From positions 62,001-126,000 of the forward strand of contig MKSF01000007.1 of the NCBI GenBank assembly GCA_001897155.1: 64,000 bases of DNA. Direction: 5' to 3'. Positions 22,089-42,420 of the stretch are shown here, piece by piece. Both the position numbers and the translations under genes were made by a program. The notes under the pieces are model-generated. The model saw only the letters and a program-made list of their open reading frames with translations, was not told the origin of the DNA and made no database searches. How positions within the stretch are numbered: position 1 is the stretch's first letter; each line of letters begins with the position of its first letter. Source of the DNA: Bacteroidetes bacterium 47-18 (GTDB lineage Bacteria; Bacteroidota; Bacteroidia; Chitinophagales; Chitinophagaceae).

Positions 22089-24203
22089 TTAAGCCGGAAC
22101 TTTTCTGCCGGTTTCCCTTTCCCATACCCGGTGGCCTTTCATTACAGCGATGAAATCCTCCGCCAGGTTATCCCGGCTTTCAAAGATGACGCCCTGGTCT
22201 TTCTCAATAAACGTCTTGCCCGCCAATGATTCCGCGCCTTTGGCAAAGGCCAGCGCCTTGCAGTGCCGGTAGCCTTCGTTCAGGAACTGCAGGAAATCGG
22301 CGTTATCGGCCAGCCTGGCTACTGAATCACCGTCCGGGATATAAAAGGCATCGTAACATACGGATGCTTCTGTCAGGTAAGAGTGCAGGATGGCTGCCTT
22401 ACCGCCCTCCTTATATTTGATTTCCCCCACGTGCGGAGCGATCAGGACCGCCTGCGCGCCTTCTTTTTCAAGCTCCTGCTTCATGGTATCGATAGATGCC
22501 CTGCTGACCCCTTCATCTACCAGGAAAGCTACTTTCCGGGACCGGATGGTACCTTCGCCTGCCTTTACCTTCATGCTGAGGGCAGGGGATAGCTCTATCT
22601 CGGGTTGTTGGGGCCGGATCGGGTACTGCGGGTGATTCTGGCGTGCGAATTTTAAAGTTAGCGGATCCAGCTCTTCAGAAGGCTTAAGTCCCAGGTTATC
22701 ACCTACCTTCTTTGCCAGCGTTTTATCGATCTGGTTCAATACGGCCAGCTCCCGCTTGCGGATATTAACGTCCTTCACCTTGGAAAGTTCAAAGCTCAGC
22801 GCATTGATGATATGAGCCTGCTCTTCCTTGCTTTGGGAATTGAAAAACAGCCGTGCCTGTGTAAAATGATCCGCGAAGGCCTCCGGGCGGGCCCTTACTT
22901 TAGGCGCGTTCACGGGCTGCCGGTGCGACTGGAAGCCTGTTTCGCCTTTCAGCATAGCGTGGTAAGGACAGCCTTCGGCTTTGCTGTTGGGGAAATAGCT
23001 TACCGCTCCCCCGGGTATGTCCATCCTGCTGAATCCGTCTTTCTGGTTGTTATGCTTACCGTTTACGGGCCTGTTGATGGGCAGCTCATGGAAGTTGGGG
23101 CCGCCCAGCCTGTAATTCTGGGTATCCATATAAGAGAAGATCCTTCCCTGCAGCAGGGGATCATCGGAAAAGTCAATGCCGGGGACCAGCCTGCCGGGGT
23201 CAAAAGCGGCCTGTTCCGTTTCGGCAAAGAAATTCCCGGGGTTCCTGTTGAGCGTCATCGTACCGATGATCTGAACAGGGACCAGCTCTTCGGGGATGAT
23301 CTTGGTCGGGTCCAGGATATCAAAAGAGTATTTGGATTCGTCCTCTTCGGGTACCAGTTGTACCCCGAGGTCCCATTGCGGGTAATCGCCGTTCTCAATG
23401 GCCTCCCACAGGTCGCGCCGGTGAAAATCGGCATCGAACCCGGAGATCTTCTGGGCTTCGTTCCAGGCTACTCCATGCACGCCCAGCCTGGGTTTCCAGT
23501 GGAACTTCACAAAAGTGGCCTTACCCTCCGCATTCACGAATTTAAAGGTATGCACCCCGAATCCTTCCATCATCCTTAAGCTCCTGGGTATGGCCCTGTC
23601 CGACATGATCCACATCGTCATATGGGCCGCTTCGGGCATCAGCGAGATAAAATCCCAGAACGTATCATGCGCGGATGCCGCCTGGGGCATTTCATTATTG
23701 GGTTCCGGCTTGACCGCGTGGACAAGGTCGGGGAAGTTCATGGCATCCTGGATAAAGAAGACCGGGATATTATTGCCTACCAGGTCATAATTCCCTTCTT
23801 CGGTATAAAATTTAACGGAGAAGCCCCGGACATCCCTGGCCAGGTCTGTTGAGCCCTTGAAGCCGGCCACCGTAGAGAAGCGTGTGAATACAGGCGTCAC
23901 GGTCCCTTTTTTCAGGAAGGCGGCAGAGGTATAAGCCGACATATCTGCGGTGGCTTCGAAAATCCCATGCGCGCCGGATCCCCTGGCATGTACCACCCGT
24001 TCCGGGATCCGTTCCCGGTCGAAGTGCATCAGCTTGTCGAAAAAAATATGATCCTGCTGCAGAGAGGGGCCTCTTTCACCGGCTTTGAGCGTATTGTTGT
24101 TGTCATACACCGGCACTCCGTCATTGGTGGTCAGAACTTTGTTGGTGTTATCAACCTGGTGCTGGTCGATGTGGGCGGTTTTTAAGTTACTTTGCTTTTT
24201 CAT
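22089..24203 (-). CDS. katE: Large-subunit catalase HPII with C-terminal DJ-1/GATase-like domain
   Basis: About 704 residues from the ATG at 24203 (a TTG two codons upstream is open but unneeded). Catalytic His72 lies in RVVHARG, the distal Asn in GNNIPVFFIQDAMNF, and the haem-ligating Tyr in FSYMDTQNYRLG. After residue 560 or so there is a flavodoxin/DJ-1-like domain (KVAFLVDEGVSRASIDTM), which defines the large-subunit clade. The enzyme breaks down hydrogen peroxide in the cytoplasm. A 4-kb transposon begins 101 bp upstream of the start codon, so the native regulatory region is interrupted. Confidence 0.97.
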   Translation of the reverse strand: MKKQSNLKTAHIDQHQVDNTNKVLTTNDGVPVYDNNNTLKAGERGPSLQQDHIFFDKLMHFDRERIPERVVHARGSGAHGIFEATADMSAYTSAAFLKKGTVTPVFTRFSTVAGFKGSTDLARDVRGFSVKFYTEEGNYDLVGNNIPVFFIQDAMNFPDLVHAVKPEPNNEMPQAASAHDTFWDFISLMPEAAHMTMWIMSDRAIPRSLRMMEGFGVHTFKFVNAEGKATFVKFHWKPRLGVHGVAWNEAQKISGFDADFHRRDLWEAIENGDYPQWDLGVQLVPEEDESKYSFDILDPTKIIPEELVPVQIIGTMTLNRNPGNFFAETEQAAFDPGRLVPGIDFSDDPLLQGRIFSYMDTQNYRLGGPNFHELPINRPVNGKHNNQKDGFSRMDIPGGAVSYFPNSKAEGCPYHAMLKGETGFQSHRQPVNAPKVRARPEAFADHFTQARLFFNSQSKEEQAHIINALSFELSKVKDVNIRKRELAVLNQIDKTLAKKVGDNLGLKPSEELDPLTLKFARQNHPQYPIRPQQPEIELSPALSMKVKAGEGTIRSRKVAFLVDEGVSRASIDTMKQELEKEGAQAVLIAPHVGEIKYKEGGKAAILHSYLTEASVCYDAFYIPDGDSVARLADNADFLQFLNEGYRHCKALAFAKGAESLAGKTFIEKDQGVIFESRDNLAEDFIAVMKGHRVWERETGRKVPA

Positions 24204-24304
24204 AATCAAAATTTTGTTGAGATTATTACAGACCGGAAAGGTCGCTGTACAGGTGATTGAAAGTGTAGTATAAACAGAAAAAGCTACTAATTGTTTTAAT
24301 GCTT

Positions 24305-24335
24305 ACTGACTATCTACATATAGGCAACAAAAAAA
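24305..24335 (+). repeat. Left terminal inverted repeat of the cargo transposon
   Basis: Begins ACTGACTATCTACATATAGG and ends in an A run. It pairs with 28310-28340 at 29 of 31 positions. The preceding eight bases TAATGCTT are the target duplication. Confidence 0.92.
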
Positions 24336-24361
24336 CCATAGATGCGGGGGTCTATGGTTTT
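24332..24361 (-). terminator. Bidirectional terminator inside the left end of the transposon
   Basis: Perfect 11-bp stem AAAACCATAGA / TCTATGGTTTT (24332-24342 with 24351-24361), an 8-base loop, and T runs on both strands. It ends the XRE gene and shields the element from katE-side transcription. Confidence 0.85.
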
Positions 24362-24362
24362 T

Positions 24363-24770
24363 TTATTTGGTTTCTGACAGTTTCTCGAGGAGATGTAATA
24401 ACCTTTCGTTCTGTTCTTCTAACTTATTATTCTGCCTTTCTAACCGTTCTATCACTTCCTTATACATCTTTCGTTCGTCTTCTGCCAAACCGTTATTATT
24501 TATGGTTACGCTCTCGCTTATGCCATTTGAATAAGTAAAATGCTGTTGTATAATAGTCTGGTCGCTTAACTTCAATAAATCACTTATATCCATTTTATAT
24601 AAACTTGCTAATTTCTCTATCCTTTCTATCGTTATCTGTGCTTGTCCCTTCTCCATTAATGAATACGTGCTGGGTGCTACATCCAAGACATTAGACACAT
24701 ACTCCTGTGTATAATTATGGACTTCCCTTAAAACCCTCAATTTATTACCTAATTTCTTGTTGATATTCAT
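24363..24770 (-). CDS. XRE-family transcriptional regulator with C-terminal coiled coil
   Basis: 135 residues. The N-terminal 60 residues are a lambda-repressor-type helix-turn-helix (KLGNKLRVLREVHNYTQEYVSNVLDVAPSTYSLMEKG). A C-terminal heptad-rich segment (about 95-133, ERLERQNNKLEEQNERL) should form a dimerising coiled coil. It lies inside the transposon at its left end, divergent from the lipoprotein gene, and is probably the regulator of the cargo. An inverted repeat ATCAA-8-TTGAT in the divergent gap at 24800-24817 is a candidate operator. Confidence 0.88.
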   Translation of the reverse strand: MNINKKLGNKLRVLREVHNYTQEYVSNVLDVAPSTYSLMEKGQAQITIERIEKLASLYKMDISDLLKLSDQTIIQQHFTYSNGISESVTINNNGLAEDERKMYKEVIERLERQNNKLEEQNERLLHLLEKLSETK

Positions 24771-24921
24771 TTCCTTATATGCTATCTAAATGCAAGTTAA
24801 TCAAATCTATGATTGATACAATATATTCACCGAAAAATCAATGAAACTTTCGATTTATCATTACAGACAAACACCCAAATATATCTTTCTTTGCTCCTAC
24901 AAAACAAAGATATTTATTTCT

Positions 24922-25803
24922 ATGAAAACACCTATCATTACTCTATTTTCTTTTCTTTTAGTCTCTTTGATTGTCTCTTGTAAGCCAAAAGATATTGATC
25001 CTATTAACGATCCAAAGCCGGACACAACCCAAGTTGATAACGGCTATCTTAAAGACAAAGACGTCTTTGTATATAACGAACAAAACCTGACTTATACCTA
25101 CAATCAGGACTATAAAGTCCGTAAGTCAATGGTGGATAGTCATATGGTTGACCTGTTTTATCACCTCAAAAATGGACTGAATACCATTACTACAACCCAT
25201 TACGTCAATGCAGAGGTGTCTATTACAGACTACACCGATGAAAACAACTTTACAATTTCAAACACGGTTAAAATTGCCCGGTCTTATCATAACGGGGATA
25301 AGGACTATTCCTTGAAATATGACTATGAAGTCAAAGACGGTGTAATGGTAATGAAGGAACATAATGATTTATATCCAACCCATATTATTCATGATTCGTC
25401 AAATAGAGATATATGGCGTCCTGCTGATAATCCGTTAAAGATACGGTTTAATAATACGGTGTTATATCATATAGAAATGTTTACATCCGGTTCTAATGAA
25501 TATCGTATATCCGTTGATTTAGTAGCTTTAAAAGATAGTTCAACTTACAAAAATAATACAAATGGCATTGAGCGTTTAGTCTTGACCCTTGAAAATGGTA
25601 AAAAGGTTAGTCCCCGTTATTGGGCTCCAGTTGATGACCAACAGGGCGGGTATGTTGAATTTGTCTTTGATAATCCGGCAAGGGAAATTAGTGAGGGATT
25701 AATACTATTTAAAGTAAAGTCAATAACGTTAAATAGCATTACCTATCCATTGACTGAAAGACAACATAAATACTTTAAGAGAGTAAATTATGTATGGGAA
25801 TAA
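24922..25803 (+). CDS. Transposon cargo: hypothetical lipoprotein
   Basis: 293 residues from the ATG at 24922. An earlier in-frame ATG at 24841 would add a non-signal extension, while from 24922 the protein begins with a clean lipoprotein signal ending in LIVSC. The mature chain has an acidic proline linker (DIDPINDPKPD), is rich in Asn, Tyr, Thr and Asp, and looks all-beta, as in surface lipoproteins of the phylum. I recognise no domain. Codon use is AT-rich, like the rest of the transposon, so it travelled with the element and not from this chromosome. Confidence 0.75.
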   Translation: MKTPIITLFSFLLVSLIVSCKPKDIDPINDPKPDTTQVDNGYLKDKDVFVYNEQNLTYTYNQDYKVRKSMVDSHMVDLFYHLKNGLNTITTTHYVNAEVSITDYTDENNFTISNTVKIARSYHNGDKDYSLKYDYEVKDGVMVMKEHNDLYPTHIIHDSSNRDIWRPADNPLKIRFNNTVLYHIEMFTSGSNEYRISVDLVALKDSSTYKNNTNGIERLVLTLENGKKVSPRYWAPVDDQQGGYVEFVFDNPAREISEGLILFKVKSITLNSITYPLTERQHKYFKRVNYVWE

Positions 25804-25884
25804 AATATAGCATGAAAAATAAATTATTCAACAACAGGGAAAGCCGAAAACTGATTTAGAGTAGGCACTAAACAAATTACTTTT

Positions 25885-26397
25885 ATGCCTAAATGTAAAT
25901 GGTGTGGCAGAACATTTGAGAAAGGAGGATTTAATAAGTTTAAAAGCAGTTGGACATTAGGAATTGCTGGTAGGGAAAGTTATTGTAGTCGTCAATGTGA
26001 AGTCTCTGCTGTTCATGGTAATAACAGTGTAATGGATTCGGAAAGACCATCTTTTAATCCTTTTAGAAGTAATTCAAGGGCTAATGAAGATAATAATGCT
26101 GAATTAGCAAGAATACAATTAGAAAAAGAACAATTTAGAGAAAAATTAGAAGCAGAGAAAGCATCCAAGAGAGAAGCCAAAGCAGAAATTTTAAGAGAGC
26201 AAGGTAAGCCATTTATGGCTTTTGTTGTTGTCAATCAAGATAAAATAGGATATGGATTATTATTTGGCTTAGTATTTGGTATCCCAATAATATTTTCTGT
26301 AACTAATGCTTTAATCGGTATAATTGTATGTATAATTGTTGTAATAGCAATAGGATTAGGAACCTATAAATATTTAAAAGAAATGTTAAAGAAATAA
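25885..26397 (+). CDS. Transposon cargo: zinc-ribbon, coiled-coil, two-helix membrane protein
   Basis: 170 residues of no family I can name. The N-terminus has a zinc-binding arrangement CKWCGRTF .. YCSRQCEVS (Cys4 at about residues 4, 7, 34 and 38). Then come a charged coiled coil (about 72-108, ELARIQLEKEQFREKLEAEK), a hydrophobic hairpin (about 120-162) and a basic tail. This layout fits a membrane-tethered cytoplasmic protein. It lies 81 bp after the lipoprotein gene and shares its orientation and AT-rich composition. It is followed by a perfect terminator. Confidence 0.75.
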   Translation: MPKCKWCGRTFEKGGFNKFKSSWTLGIAGRESYCSRQCEVSAVHGNNSVMDSERPSFNPFRSNSRANEDNNAELARIQLEKEQFREKLEAEKASKREAKAEILREQGKPFMAFVVVNQDKIGYGLLFGLVFGIPIIFSVTNALIGIIVCIIVVIAIGLGTYKYLKEMLKK

Positions 26398-26400
26398 AAA

Positions 26401-26434
26401 GTTAAGGATATATATCCTTAACTTTTTATTTTCA
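26401..26434. terminator. Terminator after the zinc-ribbon membrane protein gene
   Basis: A 22-base perfect palindrome (GTTAAGGATA at 26401-26410 mirrored to 26422), followed by a T-rich run on the plus strand and preceded by an A run, so it could stop transcription in both directions. Confidence 0.85.
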
Positions 26435-26500
26435 CATATAAATTATATCATATTTTAAATTTAATCACTTTTTATTAACCTTTTAAACAACTTTTAAATT

Positions 26501-26866
26501 ATGCCAGAAATAGTCATAAGGAATACCGAACTTGACAAAGGAGAACTTTTTTTTGAAAAAATTTTTAATAATAGTCTTAATAAGAGGTTAGAAAGAATAC
26601 GCATAACAACAACTGGAATAACCAATGAGAATTGGTCATTATTTAATGAAACCTCTATTGAAATTATAAAGTGTGATAGAAGCACTGGCCAACAAGATTC
26701 ATATAAACTGGATATAAATAAATTACAAGATAACCAATATACTTATAGTGGAGAATATAATTTTGATTTAACAAATGATTGTTTCTATATATGTAGATTC
26801 AACTATAATAATATAAGTATTTTAGATATAGAATTCACAATTACTATTACTTACGAATTAACATAA
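26501..26866 (+). CDS. Transposon cargo: small hypothetical protein
   Basis: 121 residues without signal peptide, membrane segment or recognised motif. Alternating hydrophobic and polar residues (RIRITTTGITNENWSLF, YTYSGEYNFDL, ILDIEFTITITYEL) suggest a beta-rich soluble fold. It starts 104 bp after the terminator of the preceding gene and converges with the small gene at 26873-27193. It is AT-rich, like the rest of the element. Function unknown. Confidence 0.65.
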   Translation: MPEIVIRNTELDKGELFFEKIFNNSLNKRLERIRITTTGITNENWSLFNETSIEIIKCDRSTGQQDSYKLDINKLQDNQYTYSGEYNFDLTNDCFYICRFNYNNISILDIEFTITITYELT

Positions 26867-26872
26867 TACTAT

Positions 26873-27193
26873 TTAATCTTTGAAGATATGACCGTAGCCA
26901 ATTACATTACGATTACCTGTTAAGTGGCTAAATCTTTCAATTTTATAATCTACATTTACAAATCGAAGTTTTATCATATGGCTTGATTTTAAATCCGCCA
27001 TTTTGAAAATATCATGAACATCATCTTCTGATATTTCTATTCGACAATTATTTTCTTTACACCAATCAATAATTTCTTTTGGAGTTGATATATTCCAAAA
27101 ATCATCTGATAATTTAGATATAGCACATAAAATCCAAAAAGTTTTATTCACTAATAATTCTTCGCTCGTTAATTCTTTTTTTGTTATTTCCAT
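26873..27193 (-). CDS. Transposon cargo: small hypothetical protein
   Basis: 106 residues from the ATG at 27193 (a TTG two codons earlier is open). It is mostly helical, with no signal or membrane segment. The segment TPKEIIDWCKENNCRIEISEDDVHDIFKMAD looks like a helical winged-helix-type region, but too weakly to call it DNA-binding. It is convergent with the preceding cargo gene (6 bp between stops) and lies 86 bp after the transposase on the same strand. Function unknown. Confidence 0.6.
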   Translation of the reverse strand: MEITKKELTSEELLVNKTFWILCAISKLSDDFWNISTPKEIIDWCKENNCRIEISEDDVHDIFKMADLKSSHMIKLRFVNVDYKIERFSHLTGNRNVIGYGHIFKD

Positions 27194-27278
27194 AAACAAA
27201 ACATTTAATTTCTTGAATTATATATTCGGAATTGAATGTTTTGTTTATGTTTTTTAATGACTTTTTTTAGAAGATTTT

Positions 27279-28182
27279 TTAAGCGGCCCATGAATGCTCT
27301 ATACAAGCCAATGCAAGACCGTCAAACATATCTCTATGCTTGAAATTACGTCTATTCAATTTATAACAGAACTCGTTTAAGTAATTTTGGATATACTTCT
27401 TATTCACTGAATGATGAATACCAGCAGTCATCTTTTTAGAGTTAGAAATGATTGTGTGCACCCAAGGAAGTTTTTTCATGGCATCTTCTTTCTTTACCAC
27501 TTCTGAATAATGCTTTTTTACAACATTAGATAATCTGTTAAAGCCTTTATGTTTATCGGTATAGACCGTAGCAGTCTTACATATAGACTTCTGGACTTCA
27601 TAGTTAATGGATTTAATAGTAAAACTATCTACATAAGACATCTTTACATATCCCAAGACCCTCTTTTTCTTATGCTTTAAATCGTGTTCTACTGGCTTGC
27701 TTTCAACCATAACCAGGACTTTCGCTTGCCGTTGGCTGCCTTGTCCGGCTTTCAGTTTCGTTTTACCCCTTTTAAACTCGTCATTGACCACTTCATAATG
27801 CCCACCATCTATCTCTATATCCCCGTCTAAAAGGTATCTTTCGTCCCTTTTACCCATTATTATACGGATTTTATGAAGCATATACCATACAGTCTCATAA
27901 CAGGATATACCTAAATGACTTTTTGATAGTAGATATAAAATGTATAGCGGTAAGCCATACCCGAATGGATATTTTAGACTTCTCCATTATCGTTCCAGAC
28001 TTAATATTTGTCCGGGAGCGGCAAACAGAGCATTGGAATTTATTATTGTATTTAACCCAGTAATGTTTAGTCTTTTCATTGCATCTTTTACAGGTTATAC
28101 CTTGCTTTAACCTCAAATCTTTGATATATTCTATACAGTCTTGTTCTGTTCTAAACGTGTCCATAAATTGAAATATCGTCAT
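27279..28182 (-). pseudogene. IS1595/ISXO2-type transposase, frameshifted
   Basis: Two adjacent frames together spell one transposase. The first (28182-27895) has the Cys4 zinc ribbon CKRCNEKTKHYW..CSVCRSRTNIKSG and the WLTAIHFISTIKKSF helix, then runs into a stop. The second (overlapping, with conserved sequence from about 27926 to 27279) continues with LGISCYETVWYMLHKIR and the ISXO2-like DDE domain: IEIDGGHYEV (first Asp), VYTDKHKGF (second Asp) and HHSVNKKYIQNYLNEFCYKLNRR (Glu). Family members have several more residues between KK and LG. Here the short string AAAAGTCATTT serves both sides of the gap, as after a deletion between two copies. The gene is therefore probably inactive. Confidence 0.85.
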
Positions 28183-28270
28183 ATCCGTTATTTTTATAAT
28201 ACAAAGATAATGAAGGGTATTTATATTGCCAAATAAAAATATGTGAAATTAAAATATTATTTTTTGAAAT

Positions 28271-28304
28271 AAAAAAAGCCTTAAATTAGTTTAAGACTTT
28301 TTTT
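28271..28304. terminator. Hairpin terminator inside the right end of the transposon
   Basis: A 15-bp stem with one mismatch (AAAAAAAGCCTTAAA at 28271-28285 with 28290-28304) and a 4-base loop, bounded by A and T runs. It can stop transcription in either direction and insulates the element from flanking genes. Confidence 0.75.
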
Positions 28305-28309
28305 ATTTA

Positions 28310-28340
28310 TTTTTTTGTTGACTACATGTAGATAGTCAGT
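28310..28340 (-). repeat. Right terminal inverted repeat of the cargo transposon
   Basis: Ends in GATAGTCAGT at 28340 and is complementary to 24305-24335 with two mismatches. The next eight bases, TAATGCTT, are the second copy of the target duplication. Confidence 0.92.
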
Positions 28341-28464
28341 TAATGCTTTAATATATTGGACGTCCCCTGTACAGGCCCGCTTTTACAGGGATGGTAAGGT
28401 GTGGCTGCCGGGCAGGCTGACCTGGTTTGATTATGAAGGCATTACAGGCACTATCTGAGGTTGG

Positions 28465-38080: not shown

Positions 38081-38273
38081 AGGGACTATCTGCTTACAGG
38101 CAACAAGTTTTTATTACCGATACGCCTCGCTGAACGTTGTTCTCTCTGCGGGTCAAAAAACGCTTTTACTATAAAGGAACTGAGGGTGGTGGCCATTCCG
38201 AACGAATGTGAGGAATCTCTTATAATAATTTATAACTGATAACGACTTTGTTGCCTATATATAGATAGTCAGT
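38081..38273 (+). mobile_element. MITE copy of the IS1595-type family (193 bp, both ends present)
   Basis: Left end AGGGACTATCTGCTTACAGG, right end TATATATAGATAGTCAGT, interior alignable with the copies at 38417 and 42223. It is flanked by TTCCATGA (38073-38080) and TTCCATTA (38274-38281), an 8-bp target duplication with one change. No coding capacity. It separates the upstream lipoprotein gene from its terminator. Confidence 0.85.
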
Positions 38274-42070: not shown

Positions 42071-42420
42071 AGTGACTATCTGCTTACAGGCAATAACCTT
42101 TTATTACCGATACGCCTCGCTGAACGGTGTTCTCTCTGCGGATCAGATACCGCTTTTGCTATAAATGTACTGAGGGTTTTGGTCATTCCGAACGGATGTG
42201 AGGAATCTCTTATAATAATTTAAGTGACTATCTGCTTATAGGAAACAGCTTATTCTTACAGATACGTTTTGCTCAAAAGTGTCCTCTCTGCTGATCAGAT
42301 ACCGCTTTTACTATAAATGTACTGAGGGTTTTGGTCATTCCGAACGGATGTGAGGAATCTCTTATAATAATTTACTTTGTAGCTTATAACGACTTTGTTT
42401 CCTATATATAGATAGTCAGT
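42071..42420 (+). mobile_element. Composite MITE of the IS1595-type family: two units in tandem with exact 8-bp target duplication
   Basis: The first unit starts AGTGACTATCTGCTTACAGG at 42071 and runs to 42222 without a right terminus. The second starts AGTGACTATCTGCTTATAGG at 42223 and ends TATATATAGATAGTCAGT at 42420. The units share an almost identical stretch from GATCAGATACCGCTTTT to CTTATAATAATTTA. The direct repeat TAATATAA flanks the whole (42063-42070 and 42421-42428), so the 350-bp composite moved as one, or was duplicated inside after insertion. The remaining gap from 41839 to 42650 contains only the terminator and the end remnant. Confidence 0.9.

Follow-up and report, generated by a model that had tools for sequence, protein, structure and literature searches.

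A passenger-carrying IS1595-family transposon with a split transposase gene in a Chitinophagaceae draft genome

Introduction

The window analyzed here is a stretch of 64,000 nucleotides from the draft genome of Bacteroidetes bacterium 47-18 (39 contigs, 98.8% complete), which belongs to one family with Edaphocola aurantiacus; NCBI places the latter in Chitinophagaceae. An earlier note on this DNA had proposed that positions 24305–28340 are an IS1595-type transposon whose five cargo genes form a self-contained module. The locus raises the questions of whether this stretch is a unit transposon, whether it retains a working transposase gene, and whether its passengers belong together. We found that 24305–28340 is a passenger-carrying IS1595-family transposon. 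The best overall explanation of the data is a modular passenger-carrying IS1595 transposon, probably stranded, with a cargo putatively under XRE control, and we put the probability of this explanation at roughly 0.8.

Boundaries, ends and target duplication

The element measures 4036 bp and holds five passenger open reading frames (ORFs). Its boundaries are marked by the following features.

24297–24304, no strand: left target duplication TAATGCTT (direct reading)
24305–24335, plus strand: left terminal inverted repeat, distal to the transposase (repeat match, end pattern)
24329–24364, plus strand: terminator-like hairpin just inside the left end (scanner)
28271–28306, no strand: AT-rich terminator-like hairpin inside the right end (by eye)
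28310–28340, minus strand: right terminal inverted repeat, transposase side (repeat match, end pattern)
28341–28348, no strand: right target duplication TAATGCTT (direct reading)

In inverted orientation the two terminal repeats are 94% alike over 31 bp. A 25-bp end pattern fits both of them perfectly (0 mismatches) and was absent from 100 shuffles even with 3 mismatches allowed. The 8-bp target duplication is exact. The G+C content of the element is 0.307, against 0.496 for the remainder of the window; among 208 other stretches of 4036 bp the minimum was 0.432. The matched ends of about 31 bp, the exact duplication, the base composition unlike the flanks and the five cargo genes were all present as the earlier note had described them. 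Its claim of terminators inside both ends was upheld on the left, where the terminator scanner called the hairpin (5 sites in the region versus 1.9 expected); the AT-rich right hairpin (about 28271–28306) was not called by the scanner and was identified by eye. A Thr_leader match at 28269–28346 (E-value 0.15) was taken as this AT-rich right terminator.

The transposase

The transposase gene lies at the right end and is split over two ORFs, with the zinc-ribbon half and the catalytic half in different frames.

27279–27881, minus strand: transposase catalytic half, DDE_Tnp_IS1595 (PF12762); the open frame extends further upstream, 235 aa in all
27895–28182, minus strand: transposase N-terminal zinc-ribbon half, other frame (PF12760)

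PF12762 matched the catalytic half with 74.4 bits (cut-off 27), PF12760 matched the N-terminal half in its separate frame with 30.9 bits (cut-off 25.4), and the NCBIfam IS1595 model NF033547 scored 122.8 bits versus a cut-off of 75. The catalytic columns D134, D225, N263 and K265 (numbering of L097, one of the related elements described below; L numbers denote our loci) were invariant, the row of the window element included. These catalytic residues go by the motif name D, D, N, K. Together, the ends, the duplication, the IS1595 transposase and the five ORFs bear out the earlier proposal of an IS1595-type transposon with passengers; the ISXO2-type transposase that it named proved right in type, as the three models above their cut-offs show, with the correction that the gene is not a single open frame.

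When two intact relatives were compared with the window by tblastn, residues 1–90 aligned in frame −3 and residues from about 104 onward in frame −1. About 8 residues are gone at the junction, within a stretch that is conserved in the relatives (alignments counted by eye). We read the break as a probable small internal deletion with frameshift. A member of the IS1595 family has one open transposase gene, and the window copy has two frames; this is read as decay of the present copy and not as non-membership of the family. A search with the catalytic half and a profile search of the draft genome each gave a single match and no second related transposase. Since the transposase is broken and no other related one was found in the draft, the copy looks stranded, and it probably is unless a transposase is supplied from outside.

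At a strict threshold of 1e-40, transposases of the wider type were detected in 11 of the 394 genomes of the family and in 21 of the 395 of the class, the source genome being counted in both. Among plasmids, 236 records matched the L097 transposase, all at less than 60% identity.

Related elements in other Bacteroidota

The earlier note had named, as a supporting result, further insertions that share the ends and carry the same or swapped cargo. Relatives were sought by scanning contigs with related transposases, and the best 80 of 348 loci were examined. To be counted, a locus had to have its transposase enclosed by an exact 8-bp repeat and by ends that matched at 18 or more of their 25 bases and at 7 or more of the first 10. 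The results showed such an end pair with an exact duplication at 32 of the 80 loci, versus 3 in a control with direct ends and 1 in a control with reversed ends. Twenty-four of the 32 are plain insertion sequences (IS) of 0.97–1.05 kb. The eight larger ones are L097 (2468 bp), L098 (4443 bp), L099 (3900 bp), L100 (1917 bp), L101 (1380 bp), L104 (1670 bp), L105 (2721 bp) and L164 (3017 bp). A further element was found in Edaphocola aurantiacus H2 (L219:3387–18064; 14,678 bp, 25/25 matching end bases, duplication TAATTGAT), and its transposase, an open frame, is the closest among the relatives, with 52% identity in the catalytic half.

The search suggested in the earlier note was thus answered by nine related passenger elements with 8-bp duplications, which range from 1.4 to 14.7 kb and carry largely different passengers. 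Their G+C content is 0.32–0.37 and lies below that of the flanks in eight of the nine, the exception being L164, which has short flanks. The transposase is open in eight of the nine; that of L098 has a stop codon. Most elements have their passengers between the transposase and the far end; in L098, L099 and L105 some are also present on the opposite side.

The two elements L101:2858–4237 and L104:1490–3159 come from one Saprospiraceae metagenome-assembled genome (MAG). Identity is 92% over the first 1074 bp, which comprise the end and the transposase, and 79% over the last 98 bp, and the middle gave no alignment. This swap is the clearest sign of passenger exchange.

Two of the relatives carry defence-type genes. 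In L098:7497–11939, from a Saprospiraceae MAG, an EcoRI-type methylase (PF13651, 4.5e-130) and a GmrSD_N/HNH nuclease (PADLOC REase_II, 2e-82) make up a type II restriction-modification pair within identical 25-bp ends (25/25) and an 8-bp duplication. The cargo of the Edaphocola element includes a TIR-domain protein that matches the PADLOC candidate PDC-S66 (6e-104), a LuxR-type response regulator whose receiver domain is truncated, and many unknowns; reading by eye added predicted lipoproteins and a large surface-type protein.

Loci L231 and L235 on the IMG/VR contig 2651869533_000024 were rejected as further elements: end-like motifs AATGACAATCCGCTT are repeated there around small genes, but no good end pair with a duplication was found. 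The two loci represent two related IS1595 transposases on one viral-type contig.

Transposase tree and passenger carriage

A tree was built from the 34 elements with ends (the 32 loci, the Edaphocola element and the window element) minus L098 and L150, which contain stops, giving 32 rows. The window row consisted of the catalytic half only, and passenger carriage was defined as a length of more than 1300 bp. Four plain IS (L223, L225, L227, L228) stood outside the tree, and L224 looks like the same place as L113.

Passenger carriage required 2 changes on the tree, whereas 300 label shuffles needed 8.0 on average and never fewer than 4. Eight of the nine carriers fall in one group with a support of 92/98, a value below the program's star. 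A single clade for all nine carriers was not rejected (p = 0.45 in the approximately unbiased test).

MITE-like repeats with the same ends

Searched with up to 3 mismatches, the genome yields 42 matches to the end pattern and 0 to the reversed-pattern control. Two of the 42 are the element's own ends, and two more are in the window (38249–38273 and 42396–42420). We examined 28 ends, namely 27 of the other 40 and one beside L032, and sought a partner within 1.5 kb; up to four partners per end were considered and the best one was counted, which mattered for L029. A partner was present for 18 of the 28 ends, and in 7 the nearest was 192–193 bp off. Among the 18 paired ends the duplication was 8/8 in 6 (5 different sequences) and 7/8 in 4, and none was seen in the other 8. 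The paired ends with 8-bp duplications indicate that a family resembling miniature inverted-repeat transposable elements (MITE-like) moved with the same kind of target duplication. Its members are often about 193 bp long, sometimes tandem or nested, and an interior motif GAGATTCCTCACATCCGTTCGGAATGACC recurs in many copies. Two units lie in the window, both recognized by end pattern and pairing.

38081–38273, minus strand: 193-bp MITE-like unit (L013) with the same kind of ends, duplication 7/8 bp
42071–42420, minus strand: 350-bp nested or tandem MITE-like unit (L029), duplication TTATATTA exact at the outer partner and 3/8 at the nearer one

With 42 end matches in one genome, two could by chance flank a genomic island, and 24305–28340 would then be an island between two copies of an abundant repeat and no unit transposon. 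However, the outer ends are inverted and bear a single exact 8-bp duplication, a transposase of their own family adjoins one of them, related elements share this layout and have duplications too, and the MITE interior is absent from the first 85 bp inside either end. We therefore consider the island highly improbable and treat the stretch as a unit transposon.

The passenger genes

Five genes and one putative regulatory gap lie between the left end and the transposase.

24363–24770, minus strand: XRE/HTH_3 regulator of 135 aa, directed outward, toward the left end (PF01381, 38.7 bits, cut-off 23)
24771–24921, no strand: gap between the divergent XRE and lipoprotein genes, where an operator and promoters are presumed
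24922–25803, plus strand: predicted lipoprotein, 293 aa, with a signal peptide ending in ...LIVSC (by eye; no family)
25885–26397, plus strand: 170-aa protein with N-terminal zinc-ribbon-like cysteines, a charged middle and membrane stretches near the end (by eye)
26501–26866, plus strand: 121-aa protein, probably all-beta, no family (low-confidence model)
26873–27199, minus strand: 108-aa protein, weakly like a 71-aa passenger of the Edaphocola transposon (pairwise comparison)

None of the four proteins other than the XRE regulator had a Pfam or NCBIfam family above cut-off, and their best PHROGs E-value was 0.0086, for the lipoprotein. AlphaFold modeling without relatives gave poor models, with predicted local distance difference test (pLDDT) values of 42 and, for the 121-aa protein, 57. 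The 108-aa protein and the 71-aa Edaphocola passenger were alike at an E-value of 1e-6 for the pair; an apparent resemblance between the 121-aa protein and an Edaphocola passenger did not hold up on testing. Two inverted repeats were noted within the element: one of 40 bp (26392–26431, 100%) follows the zinc-ribbon gene, and one of 59 bp (27191–27249, 84%) lies where the 108-aa gene begins.

The lipoprotein and the zinc-ribbon protein each gave no match at an E-value of 0.001 in 194 other family genomes. In the class search (197 other genomes each), the lipoprotein had 10 weak matches (E-values 0.004–0.1) and the zinc-ribbon protein 2 (0.002–0.009). Neither was matched in plasmids, nor in viral contigs by a method that finds close relatives only. 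With these two proteins lacking convincing relatives in the sets searched, the five-gene set was not met again as a set, and the five genes were not shown to be the self-contained cargo module of the earlier note, nor a travelling one.

A DNA search with the whole element gave short matches in 23 of the 194 other family genomes. On re-reading of the loci, 12 matches near element positions 1511–1582 corresponded to the RNA leader described below and two at 120–466 to the XRE gene, and the remaining ones were short pieces within the transposase or AT-rich stretches.

The passengers could also be viewed as a toxin/immunity module, interbacterial or of the toxin-antitoxin kind, in which an antitoxin-like XRE protein is joined by an exported partner. 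The regulator does give weak antitoxin-type helix-turn-helix (HTH) matches below cut-off, and by eye the set has exported and membrane-bound products. However, no passenger matched a toxin family at the thresholds used, and the XRE and lipoprotein genes are divergent and form no operon; we regard a toxin/immunity module as improbable.

The RNA leader before the zinc-ribbon gene

The gene of the 170-aa protein is preceded by a motif that resembles an Rfam family.

25834–25867, plus strand: DUF805b-like RNA leader, 17 nt upstream of the start ATG for the 170-aa protein (sub-cut-off Rfam match)

The DUF805b model (RF02914) scored 25.6 bits here versus a cut-off of 35.6, with an E-value of 0.00044. 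In 11 of the 12 family loci with the leader (among L041–L056), an ORF of 50 aa or more has its first ATG 14–19 nt after the motif, and the genes that follow are unlike one another; at L044 no such ATG was found after the motif. With two loop lengths allowed, the arms of the 3-bp stem can pair in 12 of 13 instances, the pairs having changed together, whereas 2000 shuffles of the stem arms gave at most 11 complementary instances. The source genome has one other copy of the leader, which is above the Rfam cut-off and lies about 28 nt before an ATG (L246, about 1501–1538). At an E-value of up to 1 the model matched in 14 of 14 control genomes, with 0 matches above cut-off, and four other passenger loci gave no DUF805b match at an E-value of 0.05. 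Judged by its score, the motif is counted as DUF805b-like and not as a DUF805b member. Our literature search met no publication on a DUF805 RNA motif.

The XRE gene at the far end

In four of the ten elements (the window element and its nine relatives), namely the window element, L097, L100 and L164, the gene nearest the end away from the transposase is an outward-reading XRE gene. Its partner is a divergent predicted lipoprotein gene in the window element, L097 and L164 and a zinc-ribbon membrane protein gene in L100; the zinc ribbons of the window element and L100 are weakly alike (E-value 0.003 for the pair). In phmmer comparisons within a small set, the XRE protein of the window matched that of L164 at 6e-11 and those of L097 and L100 at 3e-4, with kin also at L090 and L091. 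Such likeness is expected of many HTH proteins, and the position of the gene is therefore the stronger argument.

Members of the same XRE subfamily were seen at L091:7947–9285 (Edaphocola), where the gene is divergent from that of a predicted lipoprotein, and at L090:3093–3542; the islands around them hold genes that look PIN-, metallo-beta-lactamase- and DUF4062-like (named by eye). Neither locus was accepted as a further element: the scan for ends and duplications gave nothing at L091 and one 15/25 match, taken as chance, at L090.

We consider it probable, with moderate confidence, that the XRE protein controls the divergent lipoprotein gene. Another explanation is that it is the transposon's own regulator, which curbs transposase or copy number, the lipoprotein being incidental. 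The recurrence of XRE genes in elements with unrelated passengers and the resemblance of the protein to phage-type repressors are consistent with that role. However, the gene is sited opposite the transposase end and reads outward into a terminator-like hairpin, no such XRE gene was found in six of the ten elements with the same transposase type, and the same subfamily stands beside a predicted lipoprotein gene at L091 in Edaphocola, where no ends were found. These observations make a role as the transposon's own regulator unlikely.

It is also possible that the passengers are chance captures without a common function, with the slot taking up any DNA situated between two ends and the five genes being decaying hitch-hikers in a dead element. 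The passengers other than XRE differ between the compared elements, the transposase of the window copy is broken, and the lack of convincing relatives of the lipoprotein and the zinc-ribbon protein would fit as well. On the other hand, all five passenger frames are open in an element of 31% G+C, XRE recurs at the same place and in the same orientation, and the sibling L098 has a complete-looking restriction-modification pair. Chance capture is a serious alternative, and not a very likely one.

Comparison with known elements

Siguier, Gagnevin and Chandler reportedly described the IS1595 family of insertion sequences in 2009, with passenger-bearing members. Like that family, the window element has a DDE_Tnp_IS1595 transposase with an N-terminal zinc ribbon, ends of about 25 bp, 8-bp duplications and passengers inside. 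It differs in that its transposase gene is broken, in that its passengers apart from XRE have no known family, and in belonging to a Bacteroidota group where passenger carriage is common in our sample (8 of the 9 carriers fall in one group). Passenger-bearing IS1595 elements are already known, and the window element belongs to that kind. According to PMC8101967, the N-terminal zinc ribbon occurs in all IS1595 groups except IS1016.

MTnSag1 and tISCpe8 are mobilizable elements with an IS1595-type transposase, and the latter is, by a title cited there, a lincomycin-resistance element (PMC5704250). They resemble the window element in their IS1595-type transposase, 25-bp ends, 8-bp repeats and passengers (PMC5704250). 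The window element differs in showing no resistance family among its passengers in the Pfam and NCBIfam scans.

The transposon of Edaphocola (L219) is like that of the window in having the closest transposase, the same kind of ends, an 8-bp duplication, low G+C and one weakly related small passenger, and unlike it in its 14.7 kb, its open transposase, its candidate defence gene with a TIR domain and its lack of such an XRE gene. The element of an uncultured Chitinophagaceae member, L164 (the same as L094; 3017 bp), has the same order as the window element, with transposase, small genes, a zinc-finger-like protein, a lipoprotein and a divergent outward XRE gene, whereas its proteins beyond transposase and XRE are not recognizably alike and its transposase is outside the main passenger group. 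The top annotated plasmid matches of the L097 transposase, at 40% identity, are to ISBbi1, an IS1595-like element of Bacteroides, Myroides and Sphingobacterium plasmids that is annotated as an IS. Our literature search met no work on an IS1595 transposon in Chitinophagaceae, nor on the present group-level pattern, and we claim no absence from print beyond that search.

The insertion site

The element lies about 90 bp upstream of the gene at 22089–24209 (minus strand), the intervening stretch being 24210–24304. We take this gene to be a catalase gene. The position of the element suggests that the insertion may part the gene from its upstream control region.

Discussion

Several observations weigh against the explanation favored here. 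No XRE gene of the kind described was found by tblastn (E-value up to 1) in the other six of the ten elements, including that of Edaphocola with the closest transposase, and the lipoproteins of different elements showed no likeness by phmmer. Nor was a known anti-phage system recognized: PADLOC, run on four of the five passengers (the 108-aa one left out), gave no match to a system-specific defence protein, the only matches being those of the XRE protein to generic HTH models. L164, the best match in gene order, falls outside the main passenger group. The tree sample, which consists of the best hits to the Edaphocola transposase, leans to its kin and is no fair draw of the family. A distant element on an IMG/VR contig (L236:9893–12818; 2926 bp, identical 25-bp ends, 8-bp repeat) is also passenger-sized; with a transposase identity of 24% it was considered too remote to be counted among the ten elements or placed in the tree. 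Finally, the frame break could be an assembly error, and as the draft is in 39 contigs, a further transposase copy may lie in an assembly gap.

A modular, XRE-controlled and probably stranded IS1595 transposon would work as follows. A DDE transposase (D, D, N, K) would act on ends of about 25 bp and make 8-bp target duplications, and the stretch from the transposase to the far end would serve as a slot whose passengers can be exchanged. The present copy has lost its open transposase gene, in our reading through a small internal deletion with frameshift. The outward XRE protein is predicted to repress itself and the divergent lipoprotein gene; upon relief, the surface lipoprotein and the zinc-ribbon membrane protein, the latter with its own RNA leader, would be made, and the two would most likely act as an envelope-acting defence or exclusion module. 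That the passengers are an XRE-controlled envelope or defence module is nevertheless a tentative reading, held below even odds, in which defence is favored only because the siblings carry defence-type genes in the same slot. A surface-exclusion or toxin role, as the earlier note had considered, is a guess.

In a wider and doubtful reading, the Bacteroidota IS1595 group would be a modular cargo shuttle that spreads phage-defence and envelope-exclusion genes, its slot sometimes closed by its own outward XRE gene, and the set in the window would be an undescribed exclusion system. In more practical terms, these ends and 8-bp repeats around this transposase give a simple search rule for new defence-type and envelope genes in Bacteroidota. 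The window copy illustrates the other fate of such an element, that of a passenger transposon with a broken transposase, left amid MITE-like repeats with the same ends.

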